Assembly: GCF_900109545.1 (NCBI RefSeq)
Contig: NZ_FOAP01000003.1
Location: 186,001 to 250,000, forward strand
DNA length: 64,000 nt
Reading direction: 5' to 3'
DNA from: Stigmatella aurantiaca
GTDB taxonomy: Bacteria; Myxococcota; Myxococcia; Myxococcales; Myxococcaceae
Each line of letters starts with the position of its first letter. Position 1 is the first letter of the stretch. A model generated the notes under the pieces. It searched no databases. It saw only the letters and a program-made list of their open reading frames with translations, and was not told where the DNA came from. The position numbers and the translations under genes are program-made. Of the stretch, positions 12,054 to 41,151 are shown one piece after another.

Positions 12054-12347
12054 TCATAGCACACGGAAGGGTGGCAGCTCCTCGGGCCACCCCTCCTTCG
12101 GGTTGATCGCCCTCACCCGCTCCACGCACCCGCCACACAGCCCCAACACCAGCAGGGTGTCCTCCTCTTCCATCACTTGTGCCAGCTCCCACCGCAGCTT
12201 TTCCCGGTCCCGGTCCGTCAGCGAGCACCGGAACACCGACAGTTGCAACCGCTCTCCGTACCCCTTGATGAGCTCGTACACCTTCCTCCAGCGCTTCGGG
12301 CTCCGGATGTCGTACGTCATCAGATACCAGCGTCTCGGCTCCGCCAT
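12054..12347 (-). CDS. cas2: CRISPR adaptation protein Cas2
   Basis: The 97-residue protein starts [20 protein letters not shown]. The first-strand motif YLMTYDI with its Asp, and the ferredoxin-like pattern ([18 protein letters not shown]), are diagnostic of Cas2. Cas2 dimerises and bridges Cas1 dimers during spacer integration. The length is normal. The ATG follows the cas1 stop by three bases (TGA-gcc-ATG), so it is translated with cas1, and the stop borders the leader. Nothing is damaged in this gene. Confidence 0.95.
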
Positions 12348-12350
12348 GGC

Positions 12351-13715
12351 TCACCTCAACCGGAACGTCGCGAAGAGTCCCGGGCTTCCGGTCCATTCCT
12401 TCTCCAGCAACCGCACCTCCAGCTCCACCAGCCGCGCGTAGCTCAGCGAGTACCCCAGCACGTTGTGCTTCCACGTCTCGCGCTTGCGCCGCTCGTACAG
12501 CTCGATGGCCTTCGCACGCCCCGCCTTGCTCAGCCACACGTGCTCGGCCGTCACCTCGAAATCCTCCTCCGCGTCCCACACCCGCCGGTTGATCGACGCC
12601 ACCAGCGGCATGTCCACCAGCGGCACGCGGAACTGCTCCATCACATCCAGCGCCAGCGGGCCCGCCGAGCTGCGCGGCTGGTGGTAGAAGCCGAACGCCG
12701 GGTCCAGCCCCACCGCGATGATGGCCGCCTCCACCTCCCGGTGGACCCGCCCGTACAGGAAGCCCAGCACCGCATTGAACCGGTCCTTGGGCGGGCGGCG
12801 GTTGCGCCCATCGAAGCGCAGGCGCGAGTCCACCTCCTCACCCAGCAGGGCAGGCAGTGCCCCGAAGTAGCGTGCGGCCCCTGCCCCCTCCAGGCCCCGC
12901 AGCGAGTCCACCGACTCCGCCACCGGGCACTTCGGCAACAGCGCCCGCAGATCCCTGACCGCCGTGGCCACCCCCGAGCGGTCTTCCGGCTCTCCGCGCG
13001 AGGCGCGGAGCAGGAAGCGCAGCTGCCCCTCCAGCTTGGCCGCCACCAGCCGCCGCGCCAGCCCCAGCCCCACCTCGGGCCGCCGTAGCGCCTCGAATTG
13101 CCGGAGCCGCCGCTGCACGTTGCCCCCGCCACCGCCCAGCCCCCCCAGGTACCTTCCGCCCGCGGTGAACCAATGCACGCCGATGGCGTGGTGGACGCAC
13201 AAGGCCATGGCCTGGGAGCTCACCTGCACGCCGCCGTGGACAATGAGCGCGGACACGGTGCGCACGGGCACCCGCACCTCCTCGGCCCCCTCGGGTGGGG
13301 CCACCACGAGCTGCTCCGCGTCGCGGCCCACCCGCGTGCCCGGCACCGTCACGTGCAACACCTGCCGCACATCGTCCTCGGGGAAGAGCCGGGGCCGCGC
13401 CTCCCCGGCGGCCGGGACACGCTCCTCCTCGGGAAGGCAGACCGGGGCCAGCGAGCACCGGCCGCACTTGCGCTCCTGGGCAGTCACAGGGGGCCGCTCC
13501 GGGAGGGCCCGGAGATGCCGCGCCCGCGCCACCGCCTCCCGGACCTGCTGGCGCAAGGGTTCGTCCAGGGCGAAGCGCACCGTGGTGTCCGGCTGGTGGT
13601 AGCGCACCCGGCACTCGATGGCCGTCCCCGGGAAGCGCTCCTCGGCCAGCACGGCGTAGGCGCCTACCTGGAGCCGGTCGCGTCGCGTACACCGACTCGA
13701 AAGCCGAATCCGCAA
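12351..13715 (-). CDS. cas1: Cas4-Cas1 fusion with the N-terminal half of Cas4 missing
   Basis: The 454-residue frame opens at TTG 13715 inside a toxin-gene fragment. Cas4 sequence begins only at RLQVGAYAVLAEERFPG, which holds the QxxxY motif. Later comes the cysteine cluster KCGRCSLAPVC. The N-terminal Cys, the metal-binding Asp and the E-x-K nuclease residues of Cas4 are absent. From about residue 125 (VLHVTVPGTRVGRD) a complete Cas1 follows, with GLEGAGAARYFG (Glu), GFYHQPR (His) and LALDVMEQFR (Asp). Intact Cas4-Cas1 fusions in related systems are about 100 residues longer at the front. Cas1 integrase activity may survive; Cas4-dependent trimming and PAM selection probably do not. The actual start codon is uncertain. 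Confidence 0.88.
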   Translation of the reverse strand: MRIRLSSRCTRRDRLQVGAYAVLAEERFPGTAIECRVRYHQPDTTVRFALDEPLRQQVREAVARARHLRALPERPPVTAQERKCGRCSLAPVCLPEEERVPAAGEARPRLFPEDDVRQVLHVTVPGTRVGRDAEQLVVAPPEGAEEVRVPVRTVSALIVHGGVQVSSQAMALCVHHAIGVHWFTAGGRYLGGLGGGGGNVQRRLRQFEALRRPEVGLGLARRLVAAKLEGQLRFLLRASRGEPEDRSGVATAVRDLRALLPKCPVAESVDSLRGLEGAGAARYFGALPALLGEEVDSRLRFDGRNRRPPKDRFNAVLGFLYGRVHREVEAAIIAVGLDPAFGFYHQPRSSAGPLALDVMEQFRVPLVDMPLVASINRRVWDAEEDFEVTAEHVWLSKAGRAKAIELYERRKRETWKHNVLGYSLSYARLVELEVRLLEKEWTGSPGLFATFRLR

Positions 13716-13946: not shown

Positions 13947-14528
13947 TTACTCCCTCGAAGGCAGGAACAGGCCACACCCCATGTGACGCCGTCCTCCGAG
14001 CCCCTGCTCCTGAATCACCAAGGCCGCATCGGACGTCAATCCTCCCAGCTTTACCCCAAAGCCCACCACCTTGCGGCCAGCGACGGTGACGGTCCGCCGC
14101 CGTCCGACCTCGACAGTGCATGAGGTACCCGTCAACGCCCCCATGAACCGGTGGGCGGTGTTGCGGAAAGTGGACTCATCCTCGGAGTTCTTGAAGGTAA
14201 CAATCCGGGCGCTAAGCTGAGACACTGGCTCCATTCCCCGCACGGTGGGAGTGCCCAGCGTGATGCGCTGTCCCGCCACCTCCAGTTGGCTGCCCACCAG
14301 GCTCAGAAATGGCGGCACCGCGTCCGTGGAGCAGCGGATGCGCAAGGCGCCCGCTCCCAGGAACAAGGACGCTCTCTCCGCGAGCCTTCCCCTCAGATTG
14401 AAGACGCCCACATCCCTTCGCTCATGCAACCACGGAAGGCGCTTGGACAGGGCAGAGAACAGCCAGTACCCATGGTCGAGCGGAACCGTTCCCGCCCGGA
14501 CCGGAAAGAGCAGATCAACAACCGGCAT
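13947..14528 (-). CDS. cas6: Cas6 crRNA-processing endonuclease (Cmx6-like)
   Basis: A 193-residue RAMP protein starting MPVVDLLFPVRAGTVPLDHGYWLFSALS. The DHGYxLxxALS segment and the C-terminal glycine-rich loop (GLGGRRHMGCGLFLP) match the Cas6/Cmx6 group of MYXAN-type systems. It should cut pre-crRNA within the repeat. The second ATG (14528) is chosen because AAGGAG lies six bases upstream; the first ATG (14534) abuts that site. The gene is last in the effector operon, 29 bases after cmr6, and its stop meets the half CRISPR repeat at 13939. His19 in the DHGY motif is a candidate catalytic residue by position. Confidence 0.85.
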   Translation of the reverse strand: MPVVDLLFPVRAGTVPLDHGYWLFSALSKRLPWLHERRDVGVFNLRGRLAERASLFLGAGALRIRCSTDAVPPFLSLVGSQLEVAGQRITLGTPTVRGMEPVSQLSARIVTFKNSEDESTFRNTAHRFMGALTGTSCTVEVGRRRTVTVAGRKVVGFGVKLGGLTSDAALVIQEQGLGGRRHMGCGLFLPSRE

Positions 14529-14557
14529 TCGCATCTCCTTGAGGCGTCAGTCCCTGT

Positions 14558-15718
14558 TCAGGGCTTCGCCGTTCCCAGCTCGGCGAGGAGCGCTTCCATC
14601 CGCGGCTTCTCCTCTCCTCTCTTGAGATTGAAAGCCCCCTTGAGCAGGTGCGCCGCCGCTTGACGCTCTTCTCCGGCCAGTCCCAGCAGCCGCTCCCGCC
14701 AGTCCTGCTCCAGCCGCTGGAATCGCTTCCGTTGGGTGTCTTCCTGCCCCTTCTGCTGTTCCAGCCACGTCTTCAGCTCTTTGAGCGTGGGCGTTTCCAA
14801 CTCCTTGGCCACACGGGCTCCCGGCACCATCATGGATCCACCGGCCGGAGGCTCCTCCAGGAGAAACCGCCCATATCCCGCCGCCGTCTTCCCTCCCACG
14901 CCCCAATTCCCCAACGCCTGCTGGAGGTAGCGCGCCGCCCGCTCCAGCAAAGTCCTGCCCTCGTCCTTTCCTGGCACGAGGCTCAGCGCCACCAGGAATT
15001 GGCTTCCTGGCGCCACCGTCAGGAAGGACACGGGATTGGGATCATCGAAGTCCCCGGGCCACACGCCCCCTTCGCTCTCGTAGTACCCCCGTTGGTGGAC
15101 CGTCAGGACGTCGCGTGCCAGCGGGAGCCGCGCCCCCTGCCCCGCGGAGGCCCACCACGCATCGTGGAAGATGACCCGCCCTTGGCTCCCCCCCTCTTGC
15201 ATCGGCCCCACGTCCGGAGCCCCGAACAGACGGCGATACACACTTCCTGGTGCCGCCGTGGCCCGCCCCTTCTCCCATGTCGTCCCTCGGAAGGGTGCCC
15301 GCTCAGGCGCATCGTCCAGTCCCGCTGGCCCGTACACCGTTTCCACGTAATGGGCTGTCAGTCCCTTGAGCGACGAACCCGGCAGCACGGGCACGCCCCA
15401 CGTGTGGTGCAACGTCAACCCCACCCCAGTGGCCGCCGAGGTGCCGTGGCCCACGAGCACGCGCCCCAGCGCCTTCACCGTGAAGCAGAGGGTCTCCGGG
15501 CCTTGCAATGACTTCCACCACCGGCGATAGGCATGCCCATAGCCAACCGGTTCGCGGCATGCTTCCAAGCCCTTCAACCAGTGCTCTCTCGCGGTGGAGG
15601 CCGGATCTCCCTCCCCGATGATGGCCTGCAAGGGCGCGTACCGCGTGTAGCCGAGCCCCGCGTGACTCAGCGCCGAGAGCGTTGGGGCCGGGTGAGCGTG
15701 CCTTTCACTCAGCCACAT
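14558..15718 (-). CDS. cmr6: Type III-B RAMP protein Cmr6
   Basis: The 386-residue protein contains the RAMP signatures HTWGVPVLPGSSLKGLTAHYV (central) and GVGGKTAAGYGRF (C-terminal glycine-rich loop), and the Cmr6-like GRVIFHDAWW core. A charged, probably coiled-coil extension follows (KELETPTLKELKTWLEQQKGQ to the end), longer than in minimal Cmr6 proteins. Cmr6 caps the 3' end of the crRNA backbone in the Cmr complex. The ATG lies within the end of cmr5 (14-base overlap), so translation is coupled. Confidence 0.92.
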   Translation of the reverse strand: MWLSERHAHPAPTLSALSHAGLGYTRYAPLQAIIGEGDPASTAREHWLKGLEACREPVGYGHAYRRWWKSLQGPETLCFTVKALGRVLVGHGTSAATGVGLTLHHTWGVPVLPGSSLKGLTAHYVETVYGPAGLDDAPERAPFRGTTWEKGRATAAPGSVYRRLFGAPDVGPMQEGGSQGRVIFHDAWWASAGQGARLPLARDVLTVHQRGYYESEGGVWPGDFDDPNPVSFLTVAPGSQFLVALSLVPGKDEGRTLLERAARYLQQALGNWGVGGKTAAGYGRFLLEEPPAGGSMMVPGARVAKELETPTLKELKTWLEQQKGQEDTQRKRFQRLEQDWRERLLGLAGEERQAAAHLLKGAFNLKRGEEKPRMEALLAELGTAKP

Positions 15719-16094
15719 GGTCCTGCCCTTTCTCCACGAACGTCGCCTGGACGGCGCGCCGGAACCAGACCATCAGGTGGAGCACGTCCCGGGTCGCCCG
15801 CATGTAGCTGCCCAGTTCCAGCTTGCGCACCTCGCGAGGCAGCTCTTCCCCACGCACTTGCGGAGGGATTCCCGCGATCCCCGCCGCAGCCAGATCATTG
15901 AGCAACTGCCTCGCCGCGGCCTTGTCCTTCTCGCGTTCCAGAAAGGCCAACGCCGCGGCAAGACCGTTGCGCAGCACGGCGCTGCCCAGTGCTTGAACGC
16001 GCGGCCCATACTCTCCCTGGTCCTTGGGCAGCACCTTCTCCACACACGCATACGCATGGAGCGCCCGCCGCTGGTCTCGCGTCAGGTTTTTCAT
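15705..16094 (-). CDS. cmr5: Type III-B small subunit Cmr5
   Basis: The 129-residue helical protein starts MKNLTRDQRRALHAYACVEKV, the typical Cmr5 opening. Further helices include LRNGLAAALAFLERE and MRATRDVLHLMVWFRRAVQATF. Cmr5 forms the belly filament contacting target RNA. The start at 16094 has AAGGAG eight bases upstream and overlaps the cmr4 stop (ATGA); an earlier in-frame start would lie deep inside cmr4. It overlaps cmr6 by 14 bases. Confidence 0.92.
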   Translation of the reverse strand: MKNLTRDQRRALHAYACVEKVLPKDQGEYGPRVQALGSAVLRNGLAAALAFLEREKDKAAARQLLNDLAAAGIAGIPPQVRGEELPREVRKLELGSYMRATRDVLHLMVWFRRAVQATFVEKGQDHVAE

Positions 16095-16996
16095 CGCCGC
16101 GACTCCTTCACAGGCGCGGGCCAGGCCGCCAACCGGCACCGCCCCCGCCCCACCGTGGCTTTGCCTCCCAGCTGCAGCCAGGAAGTCCCTCGCAGCGCTC
16201 GCTCGAGCACCTCGTCCGCGCGCAGCTCTGTTCCCTTGCGCAGGCTGGCTCCCGCCGCCAGCACGCCGATCAGCAGGGTCTCGGCGGGCAAGCTCTCCTC
16301 TTGCCAGAGAGCCCCCTTCTCCACGGCGCCCGTCTTGGCATCGATCCGTACCCGGGTATCCACCTGGGTGGCCGTCTCCATGAGGAAGTTCATCGTCTCG
16401 TCGTCCACCACCACGAAGCGCTCGCGCACCAGTTCCTCCTCTCCGGGCAGCGCGCTTCCCAGGAAGCGTCCCCAGGCCTCCACCCCCGGCTCTTCGTGAA
16501 CGCTCAGGTCCAGATCCTCCAGGAAGACCTGGCGGCTTCCCTTCGGCGCAACGACGCTGTCCACGCCCACCCAGACTCCAGGGCCCGCCCGCCGCTTCAG
16601 CGGGGCTGGCACGCCCGGAAGCCCGGCCAGATCCCTGCGCGCCAGTTCCAGGAGCAAGGGCGAGGAGACCAGCGCGAAGGTCCCCGTGAAGCTGCGCACG
16701 GGCAGCGCCACCAACCGCGCATCGCCCACCACCAGCGCTCCAGCATGGTCACCCTCCTGGGCCACATCACCCGCTGGGCCTGTCACGCTGCGCAGCGGCC
16801 CGAAGAGGGCTTCCCACTCCCCGGACGGCAATGCCCGGCGCGCCTCCCTCAACACTCCCTTGAGGGATGAACCCGGAACGAAGGGAATGTTCGTCGCACG
16901 CAACCTCGCGATGGGTAGATCGATGATGCCCACGCTCTGCCCAGTCCCCGCGTGCAACGGCGAGAGGGCATGCAGCAGATACGGCCGGATTTCCAT
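16091..16996 (-). CDS. cmr4: Type III-B backbone RNase subunit Cmr4
   Basis: A 301-residue RAMP protein beginning MEIRPYLLHALSPLHAGTGQ. Asp26 in GQSVGIIDLPIAR sits exactly where the target-RNA-cleaving Asp of characterised Cmr4 lies. FVPGSSLKGVLREARR is the central RAMP motif and LQLGGKATVGRGRCRL the C-terminal glycine-rich loop. Repeated Cmr4 subunits cut bound RNA every six bases. The long open frame upstream of this ATG is a shadow of cmr3. The ATG follows the cmr3 stop by two bases, and the stop overlaps cmr5 (ATGA). Confidence 0.94.
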   Translation of the reverse strand: MEIRPYLLHALSPLHAGTGQSVGIIDLPIARLRATNIPFVPGSSLKGVLREARRALPSGEWEALFGPLRSVTGPAGDVAQEGDHAGALVVGDARLVALPVRSFTGTFALVSSPLLLELARRDLAGLPGVPAPLKRRAGPGVWVGVDSVVAPKGSRQVFLEDLDLSVHEEPGVEAWGRFLGSALPGEEELVRERFVVVDDETMNFLMETATQVDTRVRIDAKTGAVEKGALWQEESLPAETLLIGVLAAGASLRKGTELRADEVLERALRGTSWLQLGGKATVGRGRCRLAAWPAPVKESRR

Positions 16997-16998
16997 GG

Positions 16999-18156
16999 TC
17001 ACGGGTGTGTCTCCTCCTCTGGATTCCAGTGTCCGGGCAGCACCCGCCCCAGCCCTTCTTCGGGGTCCTGCCCCCAAGCGGCCAGCCACAACGAGCGCAG
17101 CGCATGGAAGGGGCGGCCGTCCACGCGCTGGAAGAAATAGGCAGCGCCCGCGGGCACCCATCGCCGCGTCGCCCGGGGAGCCCGCCGGACCATGTCCCAC
17201 GTGGACAGATCCATCGGCCGGGGCACCAGTGCCGCCCGGAGCACCACGCGGCCTTCCACCCCGGGCAATGTTCCCACCCAGGCGGGATGCCCCTCGTGCT
17301 CTTCCCGCTCCAGTCCGTCCGGCAGCCAGCCCCGGCGGAAGTGCGCGGGGGTGGCCAGGATCAACCGCAGGCCGGGCGATGTTTCCGGCAGGCCCGCCGG
17401 TGCGGAGAAGAGCTCCTCCGGCACTGGCTCGGCCAAGGCCAGGCGCCGCTTGCCTCCCAGGCCCACGGGCCCGGGAAAGCCCGGAGATGCCTCCGGCAGC
17501 CCGCACTGAACGCCGAGGGCCCACTGGACGCCTCCCGCTCCGAGGGTCTCCAGCACCTCCGTCTGGTACAGCATGCCCGGCTCCGCCGTCTGGGTCTGGG
17601 CATTCAGGGTCACCCGCACGTCGGTGCGGCGGCAGGGCTCCGGCGCGCCCAGCGCCCCGGGGGAAGTCCCGCGCAACCAGCCGCACAGAGCCTCCTCCGT
17701 CCAGAACGAGGGCAGAGGCTGGGGTTTGCCCGGGGGCATTCCCGGACGCCACAGCCGCTCCAGAGCCTCGTCGTCGTCAGTGCCCAGGGTTCCCACCCCT
17801 GCGGGGAGCGGACGGGGCAACAGGCGCCGCACGTGGCCCGCCACGGCCAGTGCATCCGCCGGTGTGGGCCACAGCCGGTGCCGGGGAGCGAAGGCTTCGT
17901 CCAGGGGTCTGCGAAGGGTCAGCACCGCTCCCAGGTGCACTCCTTGCGTCTCCTGCTCCCACGCTTCCGGAAACAGGGCGCGCGCGCGCCGGGCCATGAG
18001 GGCCTGCCCCCAAGCAGCCCGGAGCGCCCCACGCACCGTGGAGGGCAAGGGCCACGCATGGGCATGGCTGCGCCCCACATCGCTGGTGTACCAGCCACGC
18101 CCGTCCTTACAGAACAGGCCGTCTCGCGGCATCAGGGCGAAGTACGCAGTGCTCAT
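16999..18156 (-). CDS. cmr3: Type III-B RAMP protein Cmr3
   Basis: The 385-residue protein starts MSTAYFALMPRDGLFCKDGRGWY, matching the Cmr3 N-terminal pattern (RDPLFFRDGRPF-like). WPLPSTVRGALRAAW and the C-terminal GGKRRLALAEPVP segment also fit. Cmr3 binds the crRNA 5' handle and Cas10. The ATG at 18156 overlaps the cas10 stop (ATGA) and has GGGAGG six bases upstream; the frame is open 26 codons further. Length is usual for the family. Confidence 0.9.
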   Translation of the reverse strand: MSTAYFALMPRDGLFCKDGRGWYTSDVGRSHAHAWPLPSTVRGALRAAWGQALMARRARALFPEAWEQETQGVHLGAVLTLRRPLDEAFAPRHRLWPTPADALAVAGHVRRLLPRPLPAGVGTLGTDDDEALERLWRPGMPPGKPQPLPSFWTEEALCGWLRGTSPGALGAPEPCRRTDVRVTLNAQTQTAEPGMLYQTEVLETLGAGGVQWALGVQCGLPEASPGFPGPVGLGGKRRLALAEPVPEELFSAPAGLPETSPGLRLILATPAHFRRGWLPDGLEREEHEGHPAWVGTLPGVEGRVVLRAALVPRPMDLSTWDMVRRAPRATRRWVPAGAAYFFQRVDGRPFHALRSLWLAAWGQDPEEGLGRVLPGHWNPEEETHP

Positions 18157-19943
18157 GGCACACCTCCCTTGGCTTGCCGGGGCCATGGGTCCGCACGCAG
18201 AAACAGCTCCGCCAACGCCAGGCATTCGGTCCACGCCGTCACCTGGGCATGGACGTCCTCCAGCGCCGCCCCTGGCTTCAGCGGCAGCCCTGCCTCAGAG
18301 GGCAAGAGCCCCTTCCCCGGTGTCCCGATCTCCACCCGTGCCAGCACGCGCCCCACTTCCCGTGACAACACATGGCCCCAGCGCTGTGCCTCCGGAAGCG
18401 TGGTATGCGAAGGAGGCATGCGGCGCAGCAGCCCCCGCACCTCTTGCACCTTCGTCAACGGCAGCCGCCCCTCTCGCCGGAGCGCGATGGCCCTGGTGAG
18501 TGCCTCCACGGGCCCTTCTGGCCATCGCATCCGCCACGCATGCTCGGTGCTGGAGCGCAGGCGGGCCCGGAGCGCGAAGCCATCCCGGTCCTCGCTCTTG
18601 GCGAGCTGCTCCGCGCTCCGCCCCAACGCCAGCAGATCTCCGAGGCTCTCCAGCACATGGCCCACGCCCAGGCCCACGGACAACGTCGGCGGAGCATGGA
18701 TGTCCAGGCCCGCGAGCGCTTCCCCCATCGCGCAGAGAAAGGCCTGGCGCAGCTGGGCCGCACACGACAGGGCATCCGGGAGACACACGAAGGCGAGCAC
18801 ATCATCCCCTCCCGCGTAGACGAGGACACCCCGGTGGTGCTGCTCGACGATGCGCCGCGCCTCGGCGGCAAAGCCCGAGAGCTTGAGGGAAAGCCGCCGG
18901 TGCGCCTCCGGGCCCTCCTTCGCCAGCTCCTGGAGCACCTTTCCCATTTTGTCGCCATCCGCCACGAGGCAGGCCACATAGGGAAAGGGCTCGCCCAGGG
19001 CATTCAGTAGGGGCTGCACGAAGCTCTTCCCGAAGTGCGCCGCTTGTTCACGCGGCACGTCCTGTTCTTCCAGGTGCGTGCTCCACCGGCCCGGGAGCAG
19101 CAGCTGCGCATCGAAGGGGAAAGGGTTCACCCATGGCTTGTTCCCAGACCGGACCCTCGTCAAGGCAGGCCCTTCTTGGCCGCGCAGCTGCCCACACGCC
19201 TGGACCAAGGCCTCCAATGCTTTGGGCGCGGTTTCGTGAGCCCGCCCCGTGTAGGCCGCCAGACCAATGGTGGGCACGGGAATGAACTGTCCCGGCTCGC
19301 CTCCCGTTCGTTTGAGCAGGCCCATCGCATCGAGCTGCTCCCGGAGCCCGATGCGGAACTGCTTCCACTTCCCATGGTGACGCTCGCCTTCCGCCAGCAC
19401 GGACTCGCGCGCGCCATCCAGACTGGACTTGTGGACTCCGCCACGCTGGTGATGCCAGGGAGCGAACGTGCGAAGCCGCTTGTGCCCCGCCAACGCGGCC
19501 TCGGAGTGCTTCAAGGCCTCCGCATACTCCTCGGGCGTGGAGAACGCGCACCAGGCGGCGTGGAACTCCAGGAAGGTGTCCAGCTGCTCCTGGGCGGTGG
19601 CCTCGGACGCGGGGTTCACGAGCTGCGGGTGCTTCTCCCATTGTTCCCGGCCCCACTCGCGCAGGTGCTTCTTGGCCGCATCCCGGGCCGCCTGAGCCAG
19701 GGTCTGTGGATCGCCTTGCCGGAGCAGCACCATGAGCTTGTTGGGAACGCCCTGACCCGCTTCTGACCCATCAGGGAGGGCGGGAATGATCAGCTCGCCT
19801 CCTCCTCGCAGCAGGGCCTGAGCCGCCGTCTGGCTCAACATGCTGAGCACATGGCTGCCAAACCAGAGGTCACGGGTACGCCGGGCCTGGGCAATGAAAT
19901 CCTGTACGGGCCCCAGGCTCACGAGGAGCAGATGTTGCGTCAT
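18153..19943 (-). CDS. cas10: Cas10/Cmr2, GGDD cyclase intact, no HD domain
   Basis: The 596-residue protein begins MTQHLLLVSLGPVQDFIAQARRTRDLWFGS, a standard Cmr2 opening after the HD region. VACLVADGDKMGKVL is the conserved Palm segment, and VYAGGDDVLAFV (GGDD at residues 378-381) is the cyclic-oligoadenylate synthase motif. A degenerate GLGVGHVLESLGDLL helix follows. At about 600 residues it is clearly shorter than HD-containing Cas10 proteins, and no HD dyad is seen before the Palm, so Cas10-dependent DNA cutting is unlikely. Signalling through cyclic oligoadenylates is therefore the expected output. It starts one base after the cmr1 stop. Confidence 0.95.
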   Translation of the reverse strand: MTQHLLLVSLGPVQDFIAQARRTRDLWFGSHVLSMLSQTAAQALLRGGGELIIPALPDGSEAGQGVPNKLMVLLRQGDPQTLAQAARDAAKKHLREWGREQWEKHPQLVNPASEATAQEQLDTFLEFHAAWCAFSTPEEYAEALKHSEAALAGHKRLRTFAPWHHQRGGVHKSSLDGARESVLAEGERHHGKWKQFRIGLREQLDAMGLLKRTGGEPGQFIPVPTIGLAAYTGRAHETAPKALEALVQACGQLRGQEGPALTRVRSGNKPWVNPFPFDAQLLLPGRWSTHLEEQDVPREQAAHFGKSFVQPLLNALGEPFPYVACLVADGDKMGKVLQELAKEGPEAHRRLSLKLSGFAAEARRIVEQHHRGVLVYAGGDDVLAFVCLPDALSCAAQLRQAFLCAMGEALAGLDIHAPPTLSVGLGVGHVLESLGDLLALGRSAEQLAKSEDRDGFALRARLRSSTEHAWRMRWPEGPVEALTRAIALRREGRLPLTKVQEVRGLLRRMPPSHTTLPEAQRWGHVLSREVGRVLARVEIGTPGKGLLPSEAGLPLKPGAALEDVHAQVTAWTECLALAELFLRADPWPRQAKGGVP

Positions 19944-19944
19944 T

Positions 19945-21342
19945 TCAGAACTCCTTCGCCCCTTGAGAAGACTTCAGCCAGTTCACGAAAGCCTTCTCAA
20001 GACTCGCCTCTCGCAGAGGGGCATAAAGCGCGGTGTCGCCAGGAGCGAGGAGCTGGTGGAAGGGCGCCGCGGAATTCTCGACGCGTTTCCGCGTGGCCTT
20101 GTAGGTCAAGACCACCTCTCCCTTGTCCGGCCACGTCCTGCAAAGCCAGAGCGCGACAGGGACGAAACGCCCTTTCGTCAGCGGCATGGCCTTGATGATC
20201 AAAGGGGAGGCCAGACGCTCATGCACTTTGTCACCAGCGCTCCAGCGCAGCTCGACCTCCTCAGGCTCGCCGTTCGCATATGCCTTGTCCTGCCGTTCGC
20301 CAGGCTTCGGACGGGCGTGGAGCTGGAAACGGAAAGCCACCGGCAAACCAAAACCCGCCCGGGGCCAAGACACCTTTCCCGAGGCCGCATATTCAGGACG
20401 TGGTGCATGGGCATAGGCCGAGCCGTCCCTCTTTTTCAGAAGCCAGCGGATCTTGTCCGCCTCTGGCCAATGGGAACGTCCTGGCCGTTTCGGATCCCCC
20501 CACTCCCGGGCGAACTTGCCAGACGTGTCCGCCCTTCCTTGCGGCTGCCCTTGACGAAACTCCTTGAGCCACTTCAAGGCCTGAAGCCACGCCCCCTCGG
20601 GCGTCTGCTCGGACCGGCCATGGAGAAGACGCGCGCCCTGCATCAAAGGCACCTGCCGGGCTCCCCCTGAGGGAACATTCCCCAGCAAAGGCAATCCTCC
20701 GAAGAGCAGGTGCAAAGCGGCCCGGTCCGGCTGAGCGGGCAGCCACCGCTCCTCTTCTTGCTCCACGCTGAGACTTCCAAGCCCCCGGCGCGTTCGTCCT
20801 CCGTACCCTCCCCAAAGAATCCAGGCACGAAGCGCGTTCTCCACCTCTGACAACCTCCCAGCAGGAGCTTGGAGGTAAAGCTGGAAACGAATGCCCGGGC
20901 TCAGGCGCGGGGCAGGAGGCTGCCCCTCCCCACGCCCCTTCCCCGTCATTGCGCGTGCAGGCCAAAGGGCATAGGCACCTTTGCTGGTTTGCCCGATGTC
21001 GGACGGGTCTTCCTTTCTGGATTCACTGTTCACCGCCACGCGGAGTTCGACCTGGGAGCGCTTTGCCCCGTTCGCGCCAATGCCGCCCCAGAGGTCGCGC
21101 TCCCGCTGTGCCAACTCCTGCGATGACGGGTATTGGTGCGCATAGAGCGCCCGCCACCAGAAGCGCAGGTGCCCGCGAATCGTGGGCACCCGGATGATGT
21201 CCACGGTGTCCACCTGCCGGGGAACCACGGCACCACCCAGAATGGGCGTGACGCTCTTCAGGTGGACGTGAAGCTCCCCCACCTCGGGGGCTCCCAGGTA
21301 GCGGCGCTTCTTCGGCTCTGGCTCCGGCGGCTCCTGCTCCAT
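19945..21342 (-). CDS. cmr1: Type III-B RAMP protein Cmr1
   Basis: The 465-residue product has VHLKSVTPILGGAVV and RVPTIRGHLRFWWRALYA, the classic Cmr1 N-terminal signature, and WILWGGYGGRTRRGLGSL, its glycine-rich loop with the GGxGxRxRRGxG pattern. A second RAMP-like half follows (PLMQGARLL, FVPVALWLC). Cmr1 sits at the crRNA 3' end. The ATG at 21342 (MEQEPPEPEPKKRRYLG) has GAGGGG nine bases upstream; a TTG at 21387 would add 15 residues. It is the first cmr gene and follows the kinase stop by 81 bases on the same strand. Confidence 0.92.
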   Translation of the reverse strand: MEQEPPEPEPKKRRYLGAPEVGELHVHLKSVTPILGGAVVPRQVDTVDIIRVPTIRGHLRFWWRALYAHQYPSSQELAQRERDLWGGIGANGAKRSQVELRVAVNSESRKEDPSDIGQTSKGAYALWPARAMTGKGRGEGQPPAPRLSPGIRFQLYLQAPAGRLSEVENALRAWILWGGYGGRTRRGLGSLSVEQEEERWLPAQPDRAALHLLFGGLPLLGNVPSGGARQVPLMQGARLLHGRSEQTPEGAWLQALKWLKEFRQGQPQGRADTSGKFAREWGDPKRPGRSHWPEADKIRWLLKKRDGSAYAHAPRPEYAASGKVSWPRAGFGLPVAFRFQLHARPKPGERQDKAYANGEPEEVELRWSAGDKVHERLASPLIIKAMPLTKGRFVPVALWLCRTWPDKGEVVLTYKATRKRVENSAAPFHQLLAPGDTALYAPLREASLEKAFVNWLKSSQGAKEF

Positions 21343-21423
21343 CGGTCTGAACCCCTCGGCTGTGGCTTCCCTAGAGGAAGACGTCAAACGCCGGGGGCTG
21401 CCGTCGCGAAGCAGCGCGTTTTT

Positions 21424-22293
21424 TTACGAATCGAGGACTTCCCGCAGGGCGGGTCGTTTCTCGGGCTTCTTTTCCAACAGGCGCGCGATCAGTTCCCGTG
21501 TGGGAGAGGGCGCCACGCCCTCCAGCAAGTCCAGGGGCGGCGGCTCCACCACGTGGCAGAACATCAGGTCCTTCGCCTCTTGGGCCACGAAAGGCACCCG
21601 GCCCGCCAGCAGCTGGAACCAGAGCACGCCCAGCGAATAGAGGTCCGCCGCAACCCCCACCCGCTTGGAGCGGGCCCACTGCTCCGGGGCCATGTAGTCC
21701 CAGGTCCCCAGCAGCGCGCTGTCGGCCGTCGAGACGGGAAGGGCTGCGGGGAGGGCGTCCCCACCAGCCACGTGCTTGGCCAAGCCGAGATCCGCGAGCT
21801 TGACGCTCCAGGCTTCTGGCTCCGCACACGCCACCAGGATGTTGGCGGGCTTCAGGTCCCGGTGGATCCGTCCCTGCGCATGCATCGCGGACAAGGCTTG
21901 CGCCACTTGCTGGATGATCCGCGCGCTGTCCGGATGAGGCAGGCGGCCCCCGCTTCGCTCCAGGGCGTGGTGGAGGTCTTCTGGCAACCACTCCAGCACC
22001 ATGAAGGGACGTTCCACCGCCAGGACGCCACATGACAGGGCGCGGATCAGGTGCGGATGTTGGAGCTCCTGGAGCACCTGGGCCTCATTGAGGAAGCGCG
22101 CCACCGCCTCCGGGTGCGCGCAGTCCTCCGGGTTCAGCACCTTCACGGCGGCCAGCGTGCCTTCCGTGGCATGCCGGCCCAGATAGACCTCGCTCGTGGC
22201 GCCCACCGCCACCCGGCGGACCAGAAGGTACCCGTCCACGCGCAAGCCTGGAGGCAGCGGGTCTCCTGCCTTCGAGGGAGGCCGTGCCGTCAT
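21424..22293 (-). CDS. Serine/threonine protein kinase, minimal cytoplasmic form
   Basis: The 289-residue protein is little more than a Hanks-type kinase domain. It shows YLLVRRVAVGATSEVYLG (glycine loop, degenerate), AAVKVLN (ATP-binding Lys), IHRDLKPANIL (catalytic loop), LADLGLAKH (DLG in place of DFG), and WDYMAPEQW. No membrane segment or sensor follows. Its ATG overlaps the sigma-factor stop (ATGA), and cmr1 follows after 81 bases. The context suggests a role in the CRISPR island, possibly phosphorylating the sigma factor. The VAVGATSE loop and DLG motif deviate from consensus but the catalytic HRD Asp and Lys remain. Confidence 0.85.
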   Translation of the reverse strand: MTARPPSKAGDPLPPGLRVDGYLLVRRVAVGATSEVYLGRHATEGTLAAVKVLNPEDCAHPEAVARFLNEAQVLQELQHPHLIRALSCGVLAVERPFMVLEWLPEDLHHALERSGGRLPHPDSARIIQQVAQALSAMHAQGRIHRDLKPANILVACAEPEAWSVKLADLGLAKHVAGGDALPAALPVSTADSALLGTWDYMAPEQWARSKRVGVAADLYSLGVLWFQLLAGRVPFVAQEAKDLMFCHVVEPPPLDLLEGVAPSPTRELIARLLEKKPEKRPALREVLDS

Positions 22294-23102
22294 GCTTTGT
22301 CCGGAGGCCGCAGGGCGCGAAGCTGCTCCATCCAGGAGAGCAGGCTCCGCAGCTCATCGGAGCAGTCCGGATATCCGGCGACGAAAGACTCCAGCGCCAC
22401 GTCCTCCCCGGCGTCCCGGCGCCTGAAATAGACGAGCAGGGCCGCGTCCACCGCGTTCACGGTTCGCGCCTCCTCGAAGTTCTCTCCCGGCCCGGGCTCC
22501 GTCTGCCCAGCCATGAGGGCCTTGAGCGCCCGCATGCCGCGGTGAATCAGGGACTCCACCGCGTCCCGGCTCCTGCCCATGGACTGGGCGATTTCGGCCA
22601 TCGTGAGGTTCTTCACGTAGAAGAGCGACAGGGCCTTTCCCTGGTCCTCGCTGAGCTGGTGGAAGGCCGCCAACAACTGGCGCCATTGCTCCTGGTGCGC
22701 CGTCACCTGGCTGGGACTGGGCTGAGGGGTGGGCTGTGCCTGGGCTTCCAGGGTGTCCAGCGGAAGGTGGTTCGAATCGTCGCGCTTCTGGCTCTGGGCC
22801 TGCCGGATCAGGTCCACCCACTGGCTGGAGAGCACCCGCTTGAGCCAGGCGAACCATTCCTCTTTGGTCTGCCCTTTGAACCAGGAGAATTGTTCGAACG
22901 CGCGCAGCGCGGCCTCCTGGGAGACATCCGAGGGACGCGCGCCTCCGGGAAGCATGTTCGTCACACGCTGCTTGGCCCATGCGTCCAACTGGTCCTGGCT
23001 CCTGCGGAACAGCTCCTCCCAGGCGCCCTCCTCCTGGGCGCGGACCCGGCGGAGCAGTTCCTCGATGGACAGCTCCGTCAACGGCAGGCCACTCATGCTC
23101 AC
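22290..23102 (-). CDS. ECF-type RNA polymerase sigma factor with C-terminal extension
   Basis: The 270-residue protein has a region-2 helix (AWEELFRRSQDQLDAWAKQRV...SDVSQEAALRAFEQFSWFKGQTKEEWFAWLKRVL) and a region-4 helix-turn-helix (LSLFYVKNLTMAEIAQSMGRSRDAVESLIHRGMRALK). About 65 extra residues follow (EEARTVNAVDAALLVYFRRRDAGEDVALESFVAGYPDCSDELRSLL), a region resembling the helical tail often seen before bacterial kinases. The GTG start (23102) overlaps the upstream kinase stop; an ATG at 23096 is equally possible. It overlaps the next kinase by four bases. A sigma factor inside a cas operon recalls CalpS and the Haliangium sigma substrates. Confidence 0.85.
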   Translation of the reverse strand: MSMSGLPLTELSIEELLRRVRAQEEGAWEELFRRSQDQLDAWAKQRVTNMLPGGARPSDVSQEAALRAFEQFSWFKGQTKEEWFAWLKRVLSSQWVDLIRQAQSQKRDDSNHLPLDTLEAQAQPTPQPSPSQVTAHQEQWRQLLAAFHQLSEDQGKALSLFYVKNLTMAEIAQSMGRSRDAVESLIHRGMRALKALMAGQTEPGPGENFEEARTVNAVDAALLVYFRRRDAGEDVALESFVAGYPDCSDELRSLLSWMEQLRALRPPDKA

Positions 23103-28127: not shown

Positions 28128-29930
28128 TCAGCGCGCCCGGCCGACGAGCTCGCGGTACCGGTCGAAGAGTTCCTCGAACAGCTGCGTCATGGCGTCCCGG
28201 GCCGCCTGGAGCGGCCGCTGCTCCCAGTCCCGGAACACCTCGAGCATCCGGAGCACCCACTCCCGCTTGTCGTTCTCCCGCACCAGCTTGCGCTGGAAGT
28301 AGAGCGCCAGCCCCACGGGCTCCCGGAGCTCCAGATTCGCCAGCCGGACGCACTGCTGCGCGTAGTGCTCGTGCGGATCCGGGTAGGAGGGCAAGCCCAC
28401 GATCTCGATGGTCACCCGGTCCAGCGTGGCGGGCGCGCTCTTGTCATGCGCGAGCGTGGCGAGCCTGCTCGCATGGAAGAGCCAGATGAGGTAGCGGCGA
28501 AGCCTGCGCTCGGAGAGCTCCATCAAGGGACGCTCCGGCTCGAAGATGCGGAGGCTCTCGACGATGTTCCAGACGATGCTCTGCAGGGTCTTCACCTCGC
28601 CATCGTCCTGCACCGTGCCGCCCTGCTTCGCCCGGCGCCAGGCCAGCGCCACCTGGACCGCGTTCTCGTCCGCGTCGAAGTCCGCCACCTCCAGCACGAA
28701 GCCCGTGCGCCCGCTTCCACTGTAGTTGTAGGAGGTCAGCCCGCCCTGCCGGACGTGGTAGACCTCGTGGACGAGCAGCAGGCGGATGCACTCCTTCCAG
28801 TCCGATGGCGCGTTCAGCCGTCCGCGCAAGGCCTCCAGGCCCAGGAGCAGCTCCGCGTGGAAGCTCCACTTGCCGCCCAGGTGGCGGAACATCGGGCCGT
28901 TCGTCGTCGCGGGATCCTCCTCGATGGTGCTCTGGAGCAGGCTCTGCCCATCCATCATCTCCACGAGCGGGCGCTGCGGCGGCTCCTTCAGCCACGCCAC
29001 GAGATCCCTGTGGACGTCCCTCACCTCCCGCAGCACCTGGGAGGCCTTGAGGATCTGCTCCGCGGTGAAGGTACTGGCCTGCTGGTGGCCCGGGCGCGCG
29101 CTGATCCGGTGGACCGGGAGGTAGTGGCGGCCCTGGGGCTCGAACTGGTGCAGCTCCAGGGGGTGCTGGGTGTTCGGGTTGACGGCCGTGCCCAGCGCGG
29201 CGGCGAGCGCCCCGGGACAGTCCATGGCCAGCAGCACGGACTCGGCGCCCGTGAACCGCTCATGCAGCGCATCGAGCACCTGGCGGAACTGCGCCACGGC
29301 CCGCGCCGCCTGCGCCGGTCCCTGGAAGGACGTGGGAGAAGGCCCGCCCACGGGCCGCAAGGTGACCGTCGCCAGGAGCTCCGAGCCGTGCCGCGCCTGG
29401 AACTCCGCGAGGGCTGCGTCCTGGATGGAGCGGGTCACCTCGACGAGCAGCACCACGTGCCCATGCCCTCCCTGGCGCCGGGGGGGGAGGCCTTCCACCT
29501 CGAAGAAGTCCTCGGGAGCAGGGGGCTGGCCTCGGTCGTACCCCAGGGACCAAATGCCATCCGGGGCCTGCTGGTAGGTCATCAGCGGCCGGCGCGTCAA
29601 ACACGATGCCAGGTGGAACAGGAGCGTCAGGGGGGCGCACCCGAAGAGGTGAACCGGCAGGTGGCCATCGAGCCCCAGCTCCGCCTCCTTCTTCACCAGG
29701 GCGGCGGCGAACTGCTCGTTCTCGGAGAAGGCCCACGCCCAGTCCTGGAGGCGCTGCTTGCGCACCTCCCGGCCGGGCGCGTGGGGGTGAAGCACCCCGT
29801 TCTCGACGTTCCGGTCTCCTTCCTGGCCGCTCTGTTTCAGGGCGTCCCGGGCCGCGGACTCGATGACGGGCCGGTCGTGTTCGTAGCGCAGCAGGAGCGC
29901 ACGGCTCTGGGTGCGCAGGGGGATGTCCAT
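28128..29930 (-). CDS. SAVED domain protein with a C-terminal HExxH metalloprotease-like domain
   Basis: From ATG 29930 the protein has 600 residues. Two CARF-like halves of a SAVED domain are visible: LPVHLFGCAPLTLLFHLASC (His94) followed by PLMTYQQAP, and FTGAESVLLAMDCPGALAAALG followed by LELHQFEPQGRHYLPVHRI. The C-terminal part contains LLLVHEVYHVRQGG (HEVYH at 388-392) and, 30 residues on, DFDADENAVQVAL with Glu422 as a possible third zinc ligand, as in gluzincin-type peptidases. No Lon or CHAT motif is seen. The inferred role is a protease switched on by Cas10-made cyclic oligoadenylate. It is first of the long minus-strand unit. The frame is open to TTG 30008, so the start is tentative. 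Confidence 0.75.
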   Translation of the reverse strand: MDIPLRTQSRALLLRYEHDRPVIESAARDALKQSGQEGDRNVENGVLHPHAPGREVRKQRLQDWAWAFSENEQFAAALVKKEAELGLDGHLPVHLFGCAPLTLLFHLASCLTRRPLMTYQQAPDGIWSLGYDRGQPPAPEDFFEVEGLPPRRQGGHGHVVLLVEVTRSIQDAALAEFQARHGSELLATVTLRPVGGPSPTSFQGPAQAARAVAQFRQVLDALHERFTGAESVLLAMDCPGALAAALGTAVNPNTQHPLELHQFEPQGRHYLPVHRISARPGHQQASTFTAEQILKASQVLREVRDVHRDLVAWLKEPPQRPLVEMMDGQSLLQSTIEEDPATTNGPMFRHLGGKWSFHAELLLGLEALRGRLNAPSDWKECIRLLLVHEVYHVRQGGLTSYNYSGSGRTGFVLEVADFDADENAVQVALAWRRAKQGGTVQDDGEVKTLQSIVWNIVESLRIFEPERPLMELSERRLRRYLIWLFHASRLATLAHDKSAPATLDRVTIEIVGLPSYPDPHEHYAQQCVRLANLELREPVGLALYFQRKLVRENDKREWVLRMLEVFRDWEQRPLQAARDAMTQLFEELFDRYRELVGRAR

Positions 29931-30133: not shown

Positions 30134-30631
30134 ATGACCCTGGCCAGTGATGCTTGGCGCTCTACCTGTGGTCTCGTGTTGTGCGCGAGCCTCATAGGCG
30201 CTGTAGGTTGTAGTTCGACGCAAGCCGCTCGCCCAAACTCCGGCCTCGCGGATGGCACCGCCGCACGGGGGACCATTCTCGCACAGACCACCCCATGTGG
30301 TCCTGCGGACAGCACCATCTCCTGCTGCCTCAAGCAGCACCCAGGCGATTATGAGCGCTGCGGGGCGATGCCTCCCACGGAGATTCCCAAGCAGGCGCCT
30401 CGAACCGACCCACAGACGCTTCCTCCTCCCACGAGTGCGGCCTCCCCCAACAGAAGGAAGCGGGATGAGATGTGCCGCCAGTACTGGATTGAGTGCGTCG
30501 CCCTTGGCGGCGAGGATGAGAAGCGTGGGCAGTATGGCCGGAGCATTTGCCAGTCCTGCTACGACACTTGCAAAGTGAATGGCTCCTGGCCTGAGCAGGT
30601 CAACGGCATTCCGTGTCCCGGAGGCTCCTAG
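30134..30631 (+). CDS. Cysteine-rich lipoprotein, probable polymorphic (Sit-like) toxin
   Basis: The 165-residue protein has a lipoprotein signal (LVLCASLIGAVGC, Cys26). It carries the element ADSTISCCLKQHPGDYERCG, which I know from myxobacterial polymorphic toxin lipoproteins. The C-terminal cysteine-rich domain (DEMCRQYWIECVALGG...YGRSICQSCYDTCKVNGSWPEQVNGIPC) is a recurrent toxin tail of unknown chemistry. GGGAGG lies five bases before the ATG. It is transcribed away from the SAVED-protease gene, with 203 bases between starts, and an immunity-like gene follows two bases after its stop. Confidence 0.65.
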   Translation: MTLASDAWRSTCGLVLCASLIGAVGCSSTQAARPNSGLADGTAARGTILAQTTPCGPADSTISCCLKQHPGDYERCGAMPPTEIPKQAPRTDPQTLPPPTSAASPNRRKRDEMCRQYWIECVALGGEDEKRGQYGRSICQSCYDTCKVNGSWPEQVNGIPCPGGS

Positions 30632-30633
30632 CC

Positions 30634-31134
30634 ATGGCGCGAGTGCGTTGGGAGTGGTGGAACAAAGTCGCGGAAGCCCGCGAATGGCTCTGCCTGGGAA
30701 TGAGCCACGCGGAAGTGACTTTTGACGCCTACGTGGCCTCGCTCAAAGATCTGGAGCGGCAGTTTGCACGAGAGGCACGAACCCCGGCCGAACGCCTGCA
30801 CCTCAAGCGCCTGACGGCGCAGGATGCACTGCAAGCGGCGTTTGACCAAGATCGCCCGTGGAAGGACTTTGGCCCGTGGTTGCGCACGCTTCGGCAACTG
30901 GGCTTTCGGACTCTCTGGAGCCGTTTTCACATCTCGTGCATCTACGTTCAATCCTTGCCAAACTTCCGGGAACAGGCGAACGACGCCTTCGTCATGCTGG
31001 CAGAGACGGAACGCCGGGTGCGGCGATTGCGCCCGGATCATCATTCCCGTCAACAGATGCTTGATGGCATCGAGCATGCCCGGCGCGAGGCCGCAAGCCA
31101 TGGCATTCAGCCACCTGTGAAGTGGAAGCGATAG
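30634..31134 (+). CDS. Hypothetical cytoplasmic protein, probable immunity partner
   Basis: The 166-residue protein begins MARVRWEWWNKVAEAREWLC. It is mostly helical and charged, has no signal peptide, and resembles no family I can name. GGAGG lies nine bases before the ATG, inside the last codons of the toxin gene; an upstream in-frame GTG (30613) would add seven residues. The two-base gap to the preceding lipoprotein toxin is the only functional clue and points to an immunity protein. Its stop is 60 bases before the decayed CRISPR array. Confidence 0.55.
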   Translation: MARVRWEWWNKVAEAREWLCLGMSHAEVTFDAYVASLKDLERQFAREARTPAERLHLKRLTAQDALQAAFDQDRPWKDFGPWLRTLRQLGFRTLWSRFHISCIYVQSLPNFREQANDAFVMLAETERRVRRLRPDHHSRQQMLDGIEHARREAASHGIQPPVKWKR

Positions 31135-31194: not shown

Positions 31195-32397
31195 GTGCTC
31201 AACGCCTTTCGGCATCACGGCAAGGGAACCACGGACGGACATCCTCATCGAGAACTTGAACGAGAACCCGTGCTCAAAGCCTTTCGGCATCTCGGCAAGG
31301 GGAACGAAACAACATCATCAAGAACAACGCGCTGCTGTACTTGTGCTCAACGCCTTTCGGCATCACGGCAAAGGGACCTGGAAAAGGGCAACCCTCAGTT
31401 CGAGGACGTGGAGTAGTGCTCAACGCCTTTCGGCATCACGGCTTGGGGACCACCCGAGCCGAGCGGGCCGCCATCGTCGGCAACCTGTGCTCAACGCCTT
31501 TCGGCATCACGGCAAGGGGACCCTCACGGCCCTCATCGCCAAGGTCAGCTCGCGCATGTACTCAACGCCTTTCGGCATCACAGCAAGGGGAACGACCGGC
31601 GGCAGCATCACCCAGGACATGGAGGAGAAGTGCTCAACGCCTTTCGGCATCACGGCTTGGGAACTTCCGAGTCACCAAGTACATCCCGGGCGTGGACATG
31701 TGCTCAACGCCTTTCGGTATCACGGCAAGGGGAACACAGAAGGAGGTGCTCGTGCTCGGGAAGGTGGACGTGTGCTCAACGCCTTTCGGCATCAAGGCAG
31801 GGGAAATCCCCTCGCCATCCCGGGCAAGACGAAGGTGCTTGAGTGCTCAACGCCTTTCGGCATCACTGCAAGGGGAACCGCAGCGAGACCGAATCTTCGC
31901 CAAGATGTGCGCGTGCTCAACGCTTTTCGGCATCACGGCTTGGGGATCCTCTCGGCCTATGAGATGAGGCGAGCCCCCCGGACAAGTTCCAGTGCTCAAC
32001 ACCTTTCGGCATCACGGCTTGTGGAACGGAGACCCTGGAGCGCGCCAAGGACGGCAACGGCAAGTGCCCAACGCCTTTCGGTATCACTGTAAGGGAAACT
32101 ACGGGCGCGCAGATCTAATACGCGAACCAGCACAATTTGTGCTCAACGCCTTTCGGCATCACGGCAAGGGGAATGCGTAGCAGAACCCGTTCTGACGGAG
32201 GCTGTTCAGTGACGTGCTCAACGCCTTTCGGCATCACGGCTTGGGGAACCCGGCACAGGACTTCCAGGGAAACCGAGCAACGGCGCCATGCTCAACACCT
32301 TTCGATATCACGGCAAAGATAACACCAAGTCAAAGTTCCAGTCCATGACTTACCAGAACGAATACTCAACGCCTTTCGGCATCTCGGCCAAGAGACC
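31195..32397 (-). CRISPR. CRISPR array 2: 17 degenerate repeats of the same family
   Basis: About 17 copies of the same 36-bp repeat start at 31195, 31270, 31343, 31416, 31487, 31558, 31630, 31700, 31772, 31843, 31913, 31992, 32064, 32139, 32214, 32288 and 32362. Almost every copy carries substitutions or one-base deletions, for example CAAGGGAAC, TTGGGGACC and AAAGATAAC. Five copies share a GGCTTG variant near the end (31416, 31630, 31913, 31992, 32214). The leader-like sequence is at the right end, as in array 1, and the copies nearest to it are among the worst. This indicates a non-acquiring, decaying array, though spacers may still be expressed. Confidence 0.93.
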
Positions 32398-41013: not shown

Positions 41014-41151
41014 CTGTGAAGTCCCGGAGCGTGTTCCCATGAAGCATACGGGCAAGCTCCTTTTTTCTGGAGGCAGCCTGGTTCCTGGCGAGAATGAACC
41101 GGACGCGCCCATGCCCGCCTTGCTCCCCCAGCCCGCCGCAGGAGGCCGCCC

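Follow-up and report, generated by a model that had tools for sequence, protein, structure and literature searches.

A SAVED sensor joined to a conserved HExxH metallopeptidase-like domain, beside a sigma-factor and kinase module, in a type III-B CRISPR locus of Stigmatella aurantiaca

Proteases of the caspase and Lon families are named among cyclic oligoadenylate (cOA) effectors in excerpts of PMC12669027, and SAVED-CHAT is described as binding cyclic triadenylate (cA3) in those of PMC11229360. Here, we analyze a stretch of 64,000 nucleotides from Stigmatella aurantiaca (contig NZ_FOAP01000003.1, positions 186,001 to 250,000), which we call the window and whose numbering we use throughout. 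A gene at 28128–29930 of its minus strand (ATG at 29930, stop at 28128–28130) encodes a protein of 600 amino acids. Judged from its sequence, this protein is a SAVED sensor followed by a conserved HExxH metallopeptidase-like domain, and it lies within a type III CRISPR locus. We think that the sigma-factor and kinase module encoded beside it, absent from the first-pass annotation of this DNA, is the more interesting part.

Both available family profiles recognize the sensor above their curated cut-offs: Pfam PF18145 at residues 91–273 (E=5.7e-17, 62.5 bits against a cut-off of 26.2) and NCBIfam NF033611 at residues 27–277 (E=6e-28, 98.1 bits against 33). This bears out the first-pass annotation, which had claimed a SAVED domain, had correctly placed LFGCAPL (95–101) and had put the second half near DCPGALAAALG, which we locate at 237–247. 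Over residues ~9–280, the predicted model superposes on solved SAVED structures, with 8tl0_D, an activated SAVED-CHAT filament, at Z 24.9 and Cap5 SAVED structures tied at 23–24. A sequence-profile search of solved structures also returns 8tl0 as the nearest SAVED (E=7e-30; the next is at 2e-6). The protein itself has no CHAT domain, since its match to PDLC02016 is confined to the SAVED part, and neither Pfam nor NCBIfam detects a Lon domain in it.

The PADLOC model PDLC02018, 'SAVED_peptidaseM48', matches residues 62–597 (E=2.7e-188), and there is a weaker match to a 'Peptidase' effector. An hhalign comparison of members of PDLC02018 and of PDLC00754 'Peptidase' shows homology along most of the protein length (557 columns, probability 99.8), and we take both to be models of effectors of cyclic-oligonucleotide-based antiphage signaling systems (CBASS). 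Because PADLOC lists 'SAVED_peptidaseM48', the fusion is already catalogued as a candidate defense effector, and its architecture is not new. The entry is a label alone, and the literature that we searched gave no function for PDLC02018 or PDLC00754. In the same partial search, which included excerpts of PMC9704534, PMC11229360, PMC12669027, PMC11417357, PMC8999054, PMC7159879, PMC12799240 and PMC10419184, we found no characterized SAVED-HExxH protein, in agreement with the earlier remark that no such example was known.

HExxH alone is weak evidence, as 0.076 occurrences would be expected by chance given the amino acid composition of the protein; we regard the motif as real because it is conserved across homologs. 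These come from a search of 195 Myxococcota genomes (one phylum). We distinguish 18 near relatives, with 54–64% identity over nearly the whole length (for L048, over its contig), and nine distant loci (L049 and L051–L058) with 10 genes judged complete, two of them in L049. Fragments G129:C8 (L060) and G151:C117 (L061) are excluded from the peptidase counts, and L060–L062 are not tabulated. The gene of L032 (also L003) is interrupted by a TAG codon in frame at about residue 62, and its downstream part is kept in the alignment of 19 sequences and in the tree. An initial single-protein scan of genome contigs gave no relative, and none was found among viral contigs and plasmids (phage records not searched).

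The near alignment (19 sequences with the window) has 120 of 600 positions invariant, including H388, E389, H392, E414, D417, D419 and D421. A wider set of 11 shares seven sequences with the 19 and contains three relatives from metagenome-assembled genomes (MAGs) at 21–23% identity; H388, E389, H392, Q395, E414, D417, A420, D421 and ERRLRRYLIW (474–483) are kept in 11 of 11, but D419 is not. The arrangement HExxH...LExxD[FY]xAD recurs in 10 further distant genes, which were listed by a pattern already requiring [ED]xxAD and which are all the complete distant genes of the homolog search. Altogether, H388, E389, H392, E414, D417 and D421 are invariant in 32/32 distinct sequences, a set that counts the window and extends to 21% identity. 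A chance HExxH is ruled out by this invariance in the near, wider and distant sets. Both histidines, whose variability the first-pass annotation had named as grounds for abandoning its idea, are thus fixed.

In models of the full-length protein (mean predicted local distance difference test 80.5, predicted template modeling score 0.55) and of the domain (84.9 and 0.87), HEVYH lies on a predicted helix, 375–394, and the helix that follows, 407–435, carries the acidic motif. The loop between the two helices is poorly predicted (below 50 at 397–409 in the full-length model), and E414 stands at the loop edge. HExxH and an acidic motif on consecutive helices are the gluzincin arrangement. The earlier claim of HEVYH at 388–392, followed by DADENA (which we locate at 419–424), is accurate, as are its strand and coordinates. 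The first-pass annotation had also named a fold with HEVYH off a helix facing a zinc site as grounds against its idea; as far as the helix goes, the models do not show such a fold. Joining SAVED to a metallopeptidase-like domain is therefore supported by profiles, conservation and predicted helices, with protease activity itself a prediction from the sequence.

The family of the putative peptidase is less clear than its label suggests. M48 enzymes carry the signature ExxxD, with Glu as the third zinc ligand, and the five M48 proteins found in this genome all follow it, with Glu in an ExxAD motif. The corresponding slot of the SAVED-peptidase family reads DxxAD in 32/32 sequences, preceded at a distance of three residues by an invariant Glu, and we infer that the HExxH domain may be an Asp-for-Glu variant of a zincin site. 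Neither M48 (PF01435) nor M78 (ImmA/IrrE, PF06114) has a Pfam match to the 600-residue protein at E≤1. With hhalign, and with thin profiles throughout, the genome's five M48 proteins align at HExxH only (10 columns, probability 1%), and for three of its four M78 members the alignment covers the motif only. As far as profiles show, descent from M48 is rejected and descent from M78 is unsupported, the two comparator families proposed by the first-pass annotation find no backing in Pfam or hhalign, and the 'M48' in the PADLOC label, unsupported by these sequence profiles, is to be doubted.

We scored the genes beside the peptidase in neighborhoods of up to 20 kb, absence meaning absence within the stretch examined; L046 and L048 are short contigs. 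Among the 18 near relatives, 17 have an extracytoplasmic function (ECF) sigma factor, 17 a Ser/Thr kinase, 16 a kinase-nSTAND protein, 16 a CD-NTase and 10 Cmr1. CD-NTase and Cmr1 occur together in nine, where Cmr1 and the peptidase share a strand and the Cmr1 match begins −1 to 162 bp past that of the peptidase. The nine distant loci give a similar set (ECF 8, Ser/Thr kinase 8, kinase-nSTAND 7, CD-NTase 9, Cmr1 0); their peptidase is counted in 8/9, that of L056 being below the scoring threshold although the homolog search detects this locus. In contrast, 12 SAVED-CHAT loci, chosen from those listed by score or because they were already retrieved, have no ECF, no Ser/Thr kinase and no kinase-nSTAND protein at the same thresholds, whereas nine have a CD-NTase and two have Cmr1, ~9 kb away. 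No ECF match appears in these 12 loci even at E 1e-4, and the sigma module is rejected as a general neighbor of SAVED.

The linkage also holds when viewed from the sigma factor. In 189 genomes searched at E≤1e-15, the ECF of the window has 27 homologs (window included) in 25 genomes, and for 26 of the 27 a member of this peptidase family is encoded no more than ~6 kb away. Taken with the 0/12 SAVED-CHAT loci, the sigma factor looks dedicated to this peptidase family. The 27th homolog (L087:7371-13779, G126:C77) is found with kinases, a CD-NTase and SAVED-PDDEXK and no peptidase, and its kinase protein lacks the nSTAND part. In the distant locus L049:536-17238 (G098:C46), the ECF and kinase of the module precede a gene for a 442-aa peptidase-domain protein without a SAVED match, and a second SAVED-peptidase gene comes later. 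The genes between these two encode proteins of 897 and 751 aa that match no family, a DUF4407 protein and a patatin protein of 1397 aa.

These counts bear on an alternative in which the protein is a toxic, broad metalloprotease whose unspecific proteolysis halts growth upon activation by a cyclic oligonucleotide, while the sigma factor and kinases merely control expression of the operon. CBASS effectors are described as cell-killing in excerpts of PMC10419184, a nuclease-type SAVED effector adjoins the peptidase, and the three MAG relatives lack the sigma module, all of which would fit. However, the ECF accompanies this peptidase and not the 12 SAVED-CHAT loci examined in the same genomes, and two kinases plus an nSTAND protein exceed the needs of autoregulation. 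We consider this account unlikely, but worth keeping in view.

All 27 aligned ECFs have Ser where DAED has Glu (xxSD) and keep the last Asp, the motif being placed by eye; by the same alignment by eye, the window protein has RPSD where other ECFs have DAED. According to excerpts of PMC8999054, ECF43 sigma factors lack DAED and are activated by phosphorylation. The motifs of the soluble kinase are intact in 27/27, and those of the kinase-nSTAND protein are intact in all 25 copies that span the region (L049 does not have it, and the kinase scored for L048 is its soluble one, because that contig includes no more than the end of the kinase-nSTAND gene); the L058 copy is split in two frames. At L034:6514-8031 (G100:C5), ECF and kinase are naturally fused in one 505-aa frame that lacks the ECF C-terminal extension. 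In a search for an ECF promoter, GTARRY occurs within 75 bp upstream of kinase-nSTAND genes in 11/24 loci (shuffled mean 2.5, maximum 7; 500 single-base shuffles). We draw nothing from this possible promoter element because we chose the pattern by eye in those very sequences and it could be a standard −10 element.

In the window, the peptidase gene lies with a full type III-B (Cmr) system between two CRISPR arrays, and the Cas10 of this system has the GGDD cyclase motif (Table 1). The gaps from the peptidase gene down to Cas10 on the minus strand are 4, 93, −4, −4, 36 and 1 bp, the first leading to the SAVED-PDDEXK gene immediately downstream. Judging from this gene order, the peptidase gene probably leads one operon through the Cas10/Cmr genes, although the 93-bp gap could hold a promoter. 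The gene order of the window differs from that of its relatives. Pfam gives no match to an HD domain in Cas10, and the array repeat occurs nowhere else in the assembly at ≤2 mismatches. A related remnant exists at L060:8226-10216 (G129:C8), where what is left of a peptidase gene adjoins a SAVED-PDDEXK gene and a Cmr system.

There is no CD-NTase within the window, and the stretches examined for the window, L031 and L045 contain no cyclase. The one SMODS match of the genome is an orphan CD-NTase on contig C17 (~178982-179866, minus strand; L095:8983-9867), 68% identical to the L043 cyclase and without module genes within 20 kb. As a cyclase homolog in the same genome, it may feed the peptidase module in trans. 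The cyclases also permit another explanation, namely that the peptidase regulates the cyclase or the messenger level by cutting the CD-NTase, its conjugates or some other immune protein, with no sigma pathway. A CD-NTase is indeed nearby in 16/18 near and 9/9 distant loci, and the MAG relatives adjoin ThiF/E2 proteins or HORMA; the three stretches without a cyclase argue the other way, as does the SAVED sensor, which points to a downstream effector. We find this explanation improbable.

On the peptidase tree, the window pairs with L007 (97/98), but both are long branches and the pairing is unsure. At the L007 locus (L036), a CD-NTase is present and Cmr is absent. Judged over the stretches examined, the tree requires Cmr linkage to have changed at least four times; type III-B linkage thus seems to have arisen or been lost repeatedly.

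With slightly better than even confidence, we propose that the protein is a cyclic-oligonucleotide-gated metallopeptidase that serves as the switch of a signaling relay with transcriptional output, common to CBASS and type III CRISPR. The proposal builds on the observed domains, conservation, gene order, linkage, and kinase and Cas10 motifs, and from these we infer the operon, ligand, zinc, proteolysis, substrate and order of events. Cas10 of the type III-B complex would detect phage RNA and produce cyclic oligoadenylate, and our guess for the messenger is cA3, given that SAVED-CHAT has the SAVED domain closest in sequence to the one here. Binding of the messenger to SAVED would cause oligomerization and activate the HExxH domain, which would then make one or a few specific cuts. 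The likeliest target would belong to the same module: either the C-terminal extension of its ECF sigma factor or its membrane protein with kinase, nSTAND and TPR parts. The cut would yield an active ECF sigma factor, probably phosphorylated by its partner kinase, and in turn a defense transcription program. In most relatives, a CBASS cyclase would feed the same module, whereas here the orphan cyclase homolog would perhaps do so in trans. A more far-reaching version is less likely: one metalloprotease hub, with an unusual HExxH plus Asp site that is unrelated by profile to the families tested, would be fed by RNA-guided Cas10 in cis and a CBASS cyclase in trans and would drive a membrane kinase-STAND/kinase/ECF cascade, so that adaptive and innate immunity converge on a single transcriptional program in a social bacterium.

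A number of observations weigh against the proposed relay. The first group concerns the protein's putative activity, metal and ligand. Foldseek returns no solved structure for this domain at E≤0.001, and a sequence search of solved structures gives one chance-level match (E=0.55). In a second structural comparison, made with the domain model, the three best-scoring entries all belong to the small zinc peptidase selecase (4qhf: Z 4.8, root-mean-square deviation 3.7, 106/109 residues), and dipeptidyl peptidase III (Z 3.6) and the aspzincin GfMEP (Z 2.5) appear amid unrelated helical proteins (prenyltransferases at Z 3.6 and 3.0). The absence of an M48 chain among the entries listed proves nothing. 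The likeness of the model to selecase speaks weakly in favor of a zinc peptidase, but its Z is in the range that the tool calls common, and it is suggestive, no more. The domain may have an activity other than proteolysis or be inactive. An outright non-protease, with HExxH in another fold or in a degenerate scaffold, would agree with these weak structure matches, with the lack of a Pfam or profile relation to any peptidase family and with Asp instead of Glu in the third-ligand slot. The invariance of H, E, H, E414, D417, A420 and D421 amid variable neighbors counts against it, as does the two-helix arrangement in the models, and we give a non-protease little credence.

The second group concerns the sigma factor. 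The peptidase locus L055 lacks the sigma module, and the peptidase of the genome with the 27th ECF is on another contig (L031), beside Cmr, with no sigma module within 20 kb. The MAG relatives (L075-L077) have CD-NTases and ThiF (E1)/E2 or HORMA genes and no matching ECF or kinases in 14–20 kb, and the peptidase can therefore exist without this sigma factor. In the MAG relatives, L055 and L031, either the substrate differs or the sigma link is secondary. Two of the 12 SAVED-CHAT loci (L088, L094) have weaker, sub-threshold kinase matches. Finally, the linkage counts are not independent, because many of the genomes belong to one genus and few lineages are represented.

Table 1. Features of the type III-B locus and its surroundings in the window (aa, amino acids; TM, transmembrane)
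Feature	Position	Strand	Evidence
SAVED-metallopeptidase-like effector	28128..29930	-	SAVED ~9-280; HEVYH 388-392 in helix 375-394; acidic helix 407-435 (E414, D417, D421); ERRLRRYLIW 474-483
PDDEXK-type nuclease-SAVED (Cap4-like), second SAVED effector, 505 aa	26606..28123	-	PF18145 E=1.4e-31; PDLC00737 'Endonuclease' E=9e-203; PDLC02004 SAVED_PDDEXK E=9e-176
Ser/Thr kinase-nSTAND1 NTPase-probable TM-TPR, 1137 aa	23099..26512	-	PF00069 E=8e-46; PF20703 E=1.3e-83; TPR
ECF sigma factor, 270 aa, C-terminal extension	22290..23102	-	PF07638/PF08281
Soluble Ser/Thr kinase, 289 aa	21424..22293	-	PF00069 E=9e-44; 4-bp overlap with ECF gene
Cmr1	19945..21387	-	TIGR01894 E=3e-10; PADLOC Cmr1
Cas10/Cmr2, GGDD (VYAGGDDVLAF)	18153..19943	-	TIGR02577 E=1.5e-61; PF22335
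Cmr3	16999..18234	-	PADLOC Cmr3 E=1e-54; TIGR01888 E=1.6e-10 (below cut-off)
Cmr4	16091..16997, start approximate	-	3' part of frame 16091-17752; TIGR02580 E=7.5e-57, frame residues 257-540
Cmr5	15705..16139	-	TIGR01881 E=1.3e-7
Cmr6	14558..15718	-	TIGR01898 E=1.4e-32
Cas6/Cmx6	13947..14534	-	TIGR02807 E=6e-62
Cas1	12351..13715	-	TIGR03983 E=5e-165; weak N-terminal Cas4-like match TIGR00372 E=2e-6 (below cut-off)
Cas2	12054..12347	-	TIGR01573 E=7e-14
CRISPR array 1	9624..11800	+	31 exact copies, 27-base repeat core
CRISPR array 2	31195..32388	+	array 1 repeat; 15 copies within 3 mismatches, partly degenerate

The probable TM helix of the kinase-nSTAND-TPR protein spans residues 760–776 and was read from the sequence without a TM predictor. 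Array 2 is separated from the operon by two small genes at 30134–31134 of the plus strand; Pfam returns nothing at E≤1 for one and a chance-level match for the other. Further away, the protein encoded at 39142–41112 of the minus strand has a sub-cut-off match to erythromycin esterase models (EreB, E=4.5e-26).

If correct, a metalloprotease arm would add a third chemistry to the proteases of these systems, with an output that can be tested through the sigma factor that usually accompanies it. The protein may convert the detection of a virus into a change in gene expression, and this gives the PADLOC entry, so far no more than a name, a hypothesis for its function. In the loci examined, CBASS and type III-B share one effector module; together with the repeated changes in Cmr linkage, this makes the convergence of innate and adaptive nucleotide signaling directly testable. 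In the excerpts covered by our partial literature search, neither the coupling to type III-B nor the sigma/kinase module is described.

The PADLOC SAVED_peptidaseM48 and Peptidase entries describe the same protein family, but the gene of the window belongs to a type III-B locus without a cyclase in cis. SAVED-CHAT/PCaspase has the closest solved SAVED by sequence (8tl0); however, its protease is the caspase-like CHAT, and the ECF, kinase and nSTAND set is found in none of the 12 SAVED-CHAT loci at the scoring thresholds. That cascade belongs to a myxobacterial type III-B system, the one of Haliangium ochraceum, whose SAVED-protease is said (Steens, 2024) to have been co-opted from CBASS. The ECF43 systems EcfP/PknT and EcfK/PknS, as far as excerpts of PMC8999054 describe them, are similar in that the ECF gene adjoins a Ser/Thr kinase gene and, with the motif of the window protein placed by eye, DAED contains a non-acidic residue; the ECF of the window differs in its linkage to a cyclic-nucleotide effector and in keeping one acidic D, and membership in ECF43 would be by analogy. 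CalpL/CalpT/CalpS, also of a type III system, likewise has a cOA-sensing SAVED fused to a protease and an ECF sigma factor (excerpts of PMC11417357). Here, the protease domain is HExxH and not Lon, SAVED is N-terminal, and two kinases and nSTAND stand in place of the anti-sigma factor. No anti-sigma gene was recognized among the genes of the operon, where none was searched for by model. The proposed relay would thus resemble CalpL/CalpT/CalpS with another protease and with kinases replacing the anti-sigma factor.

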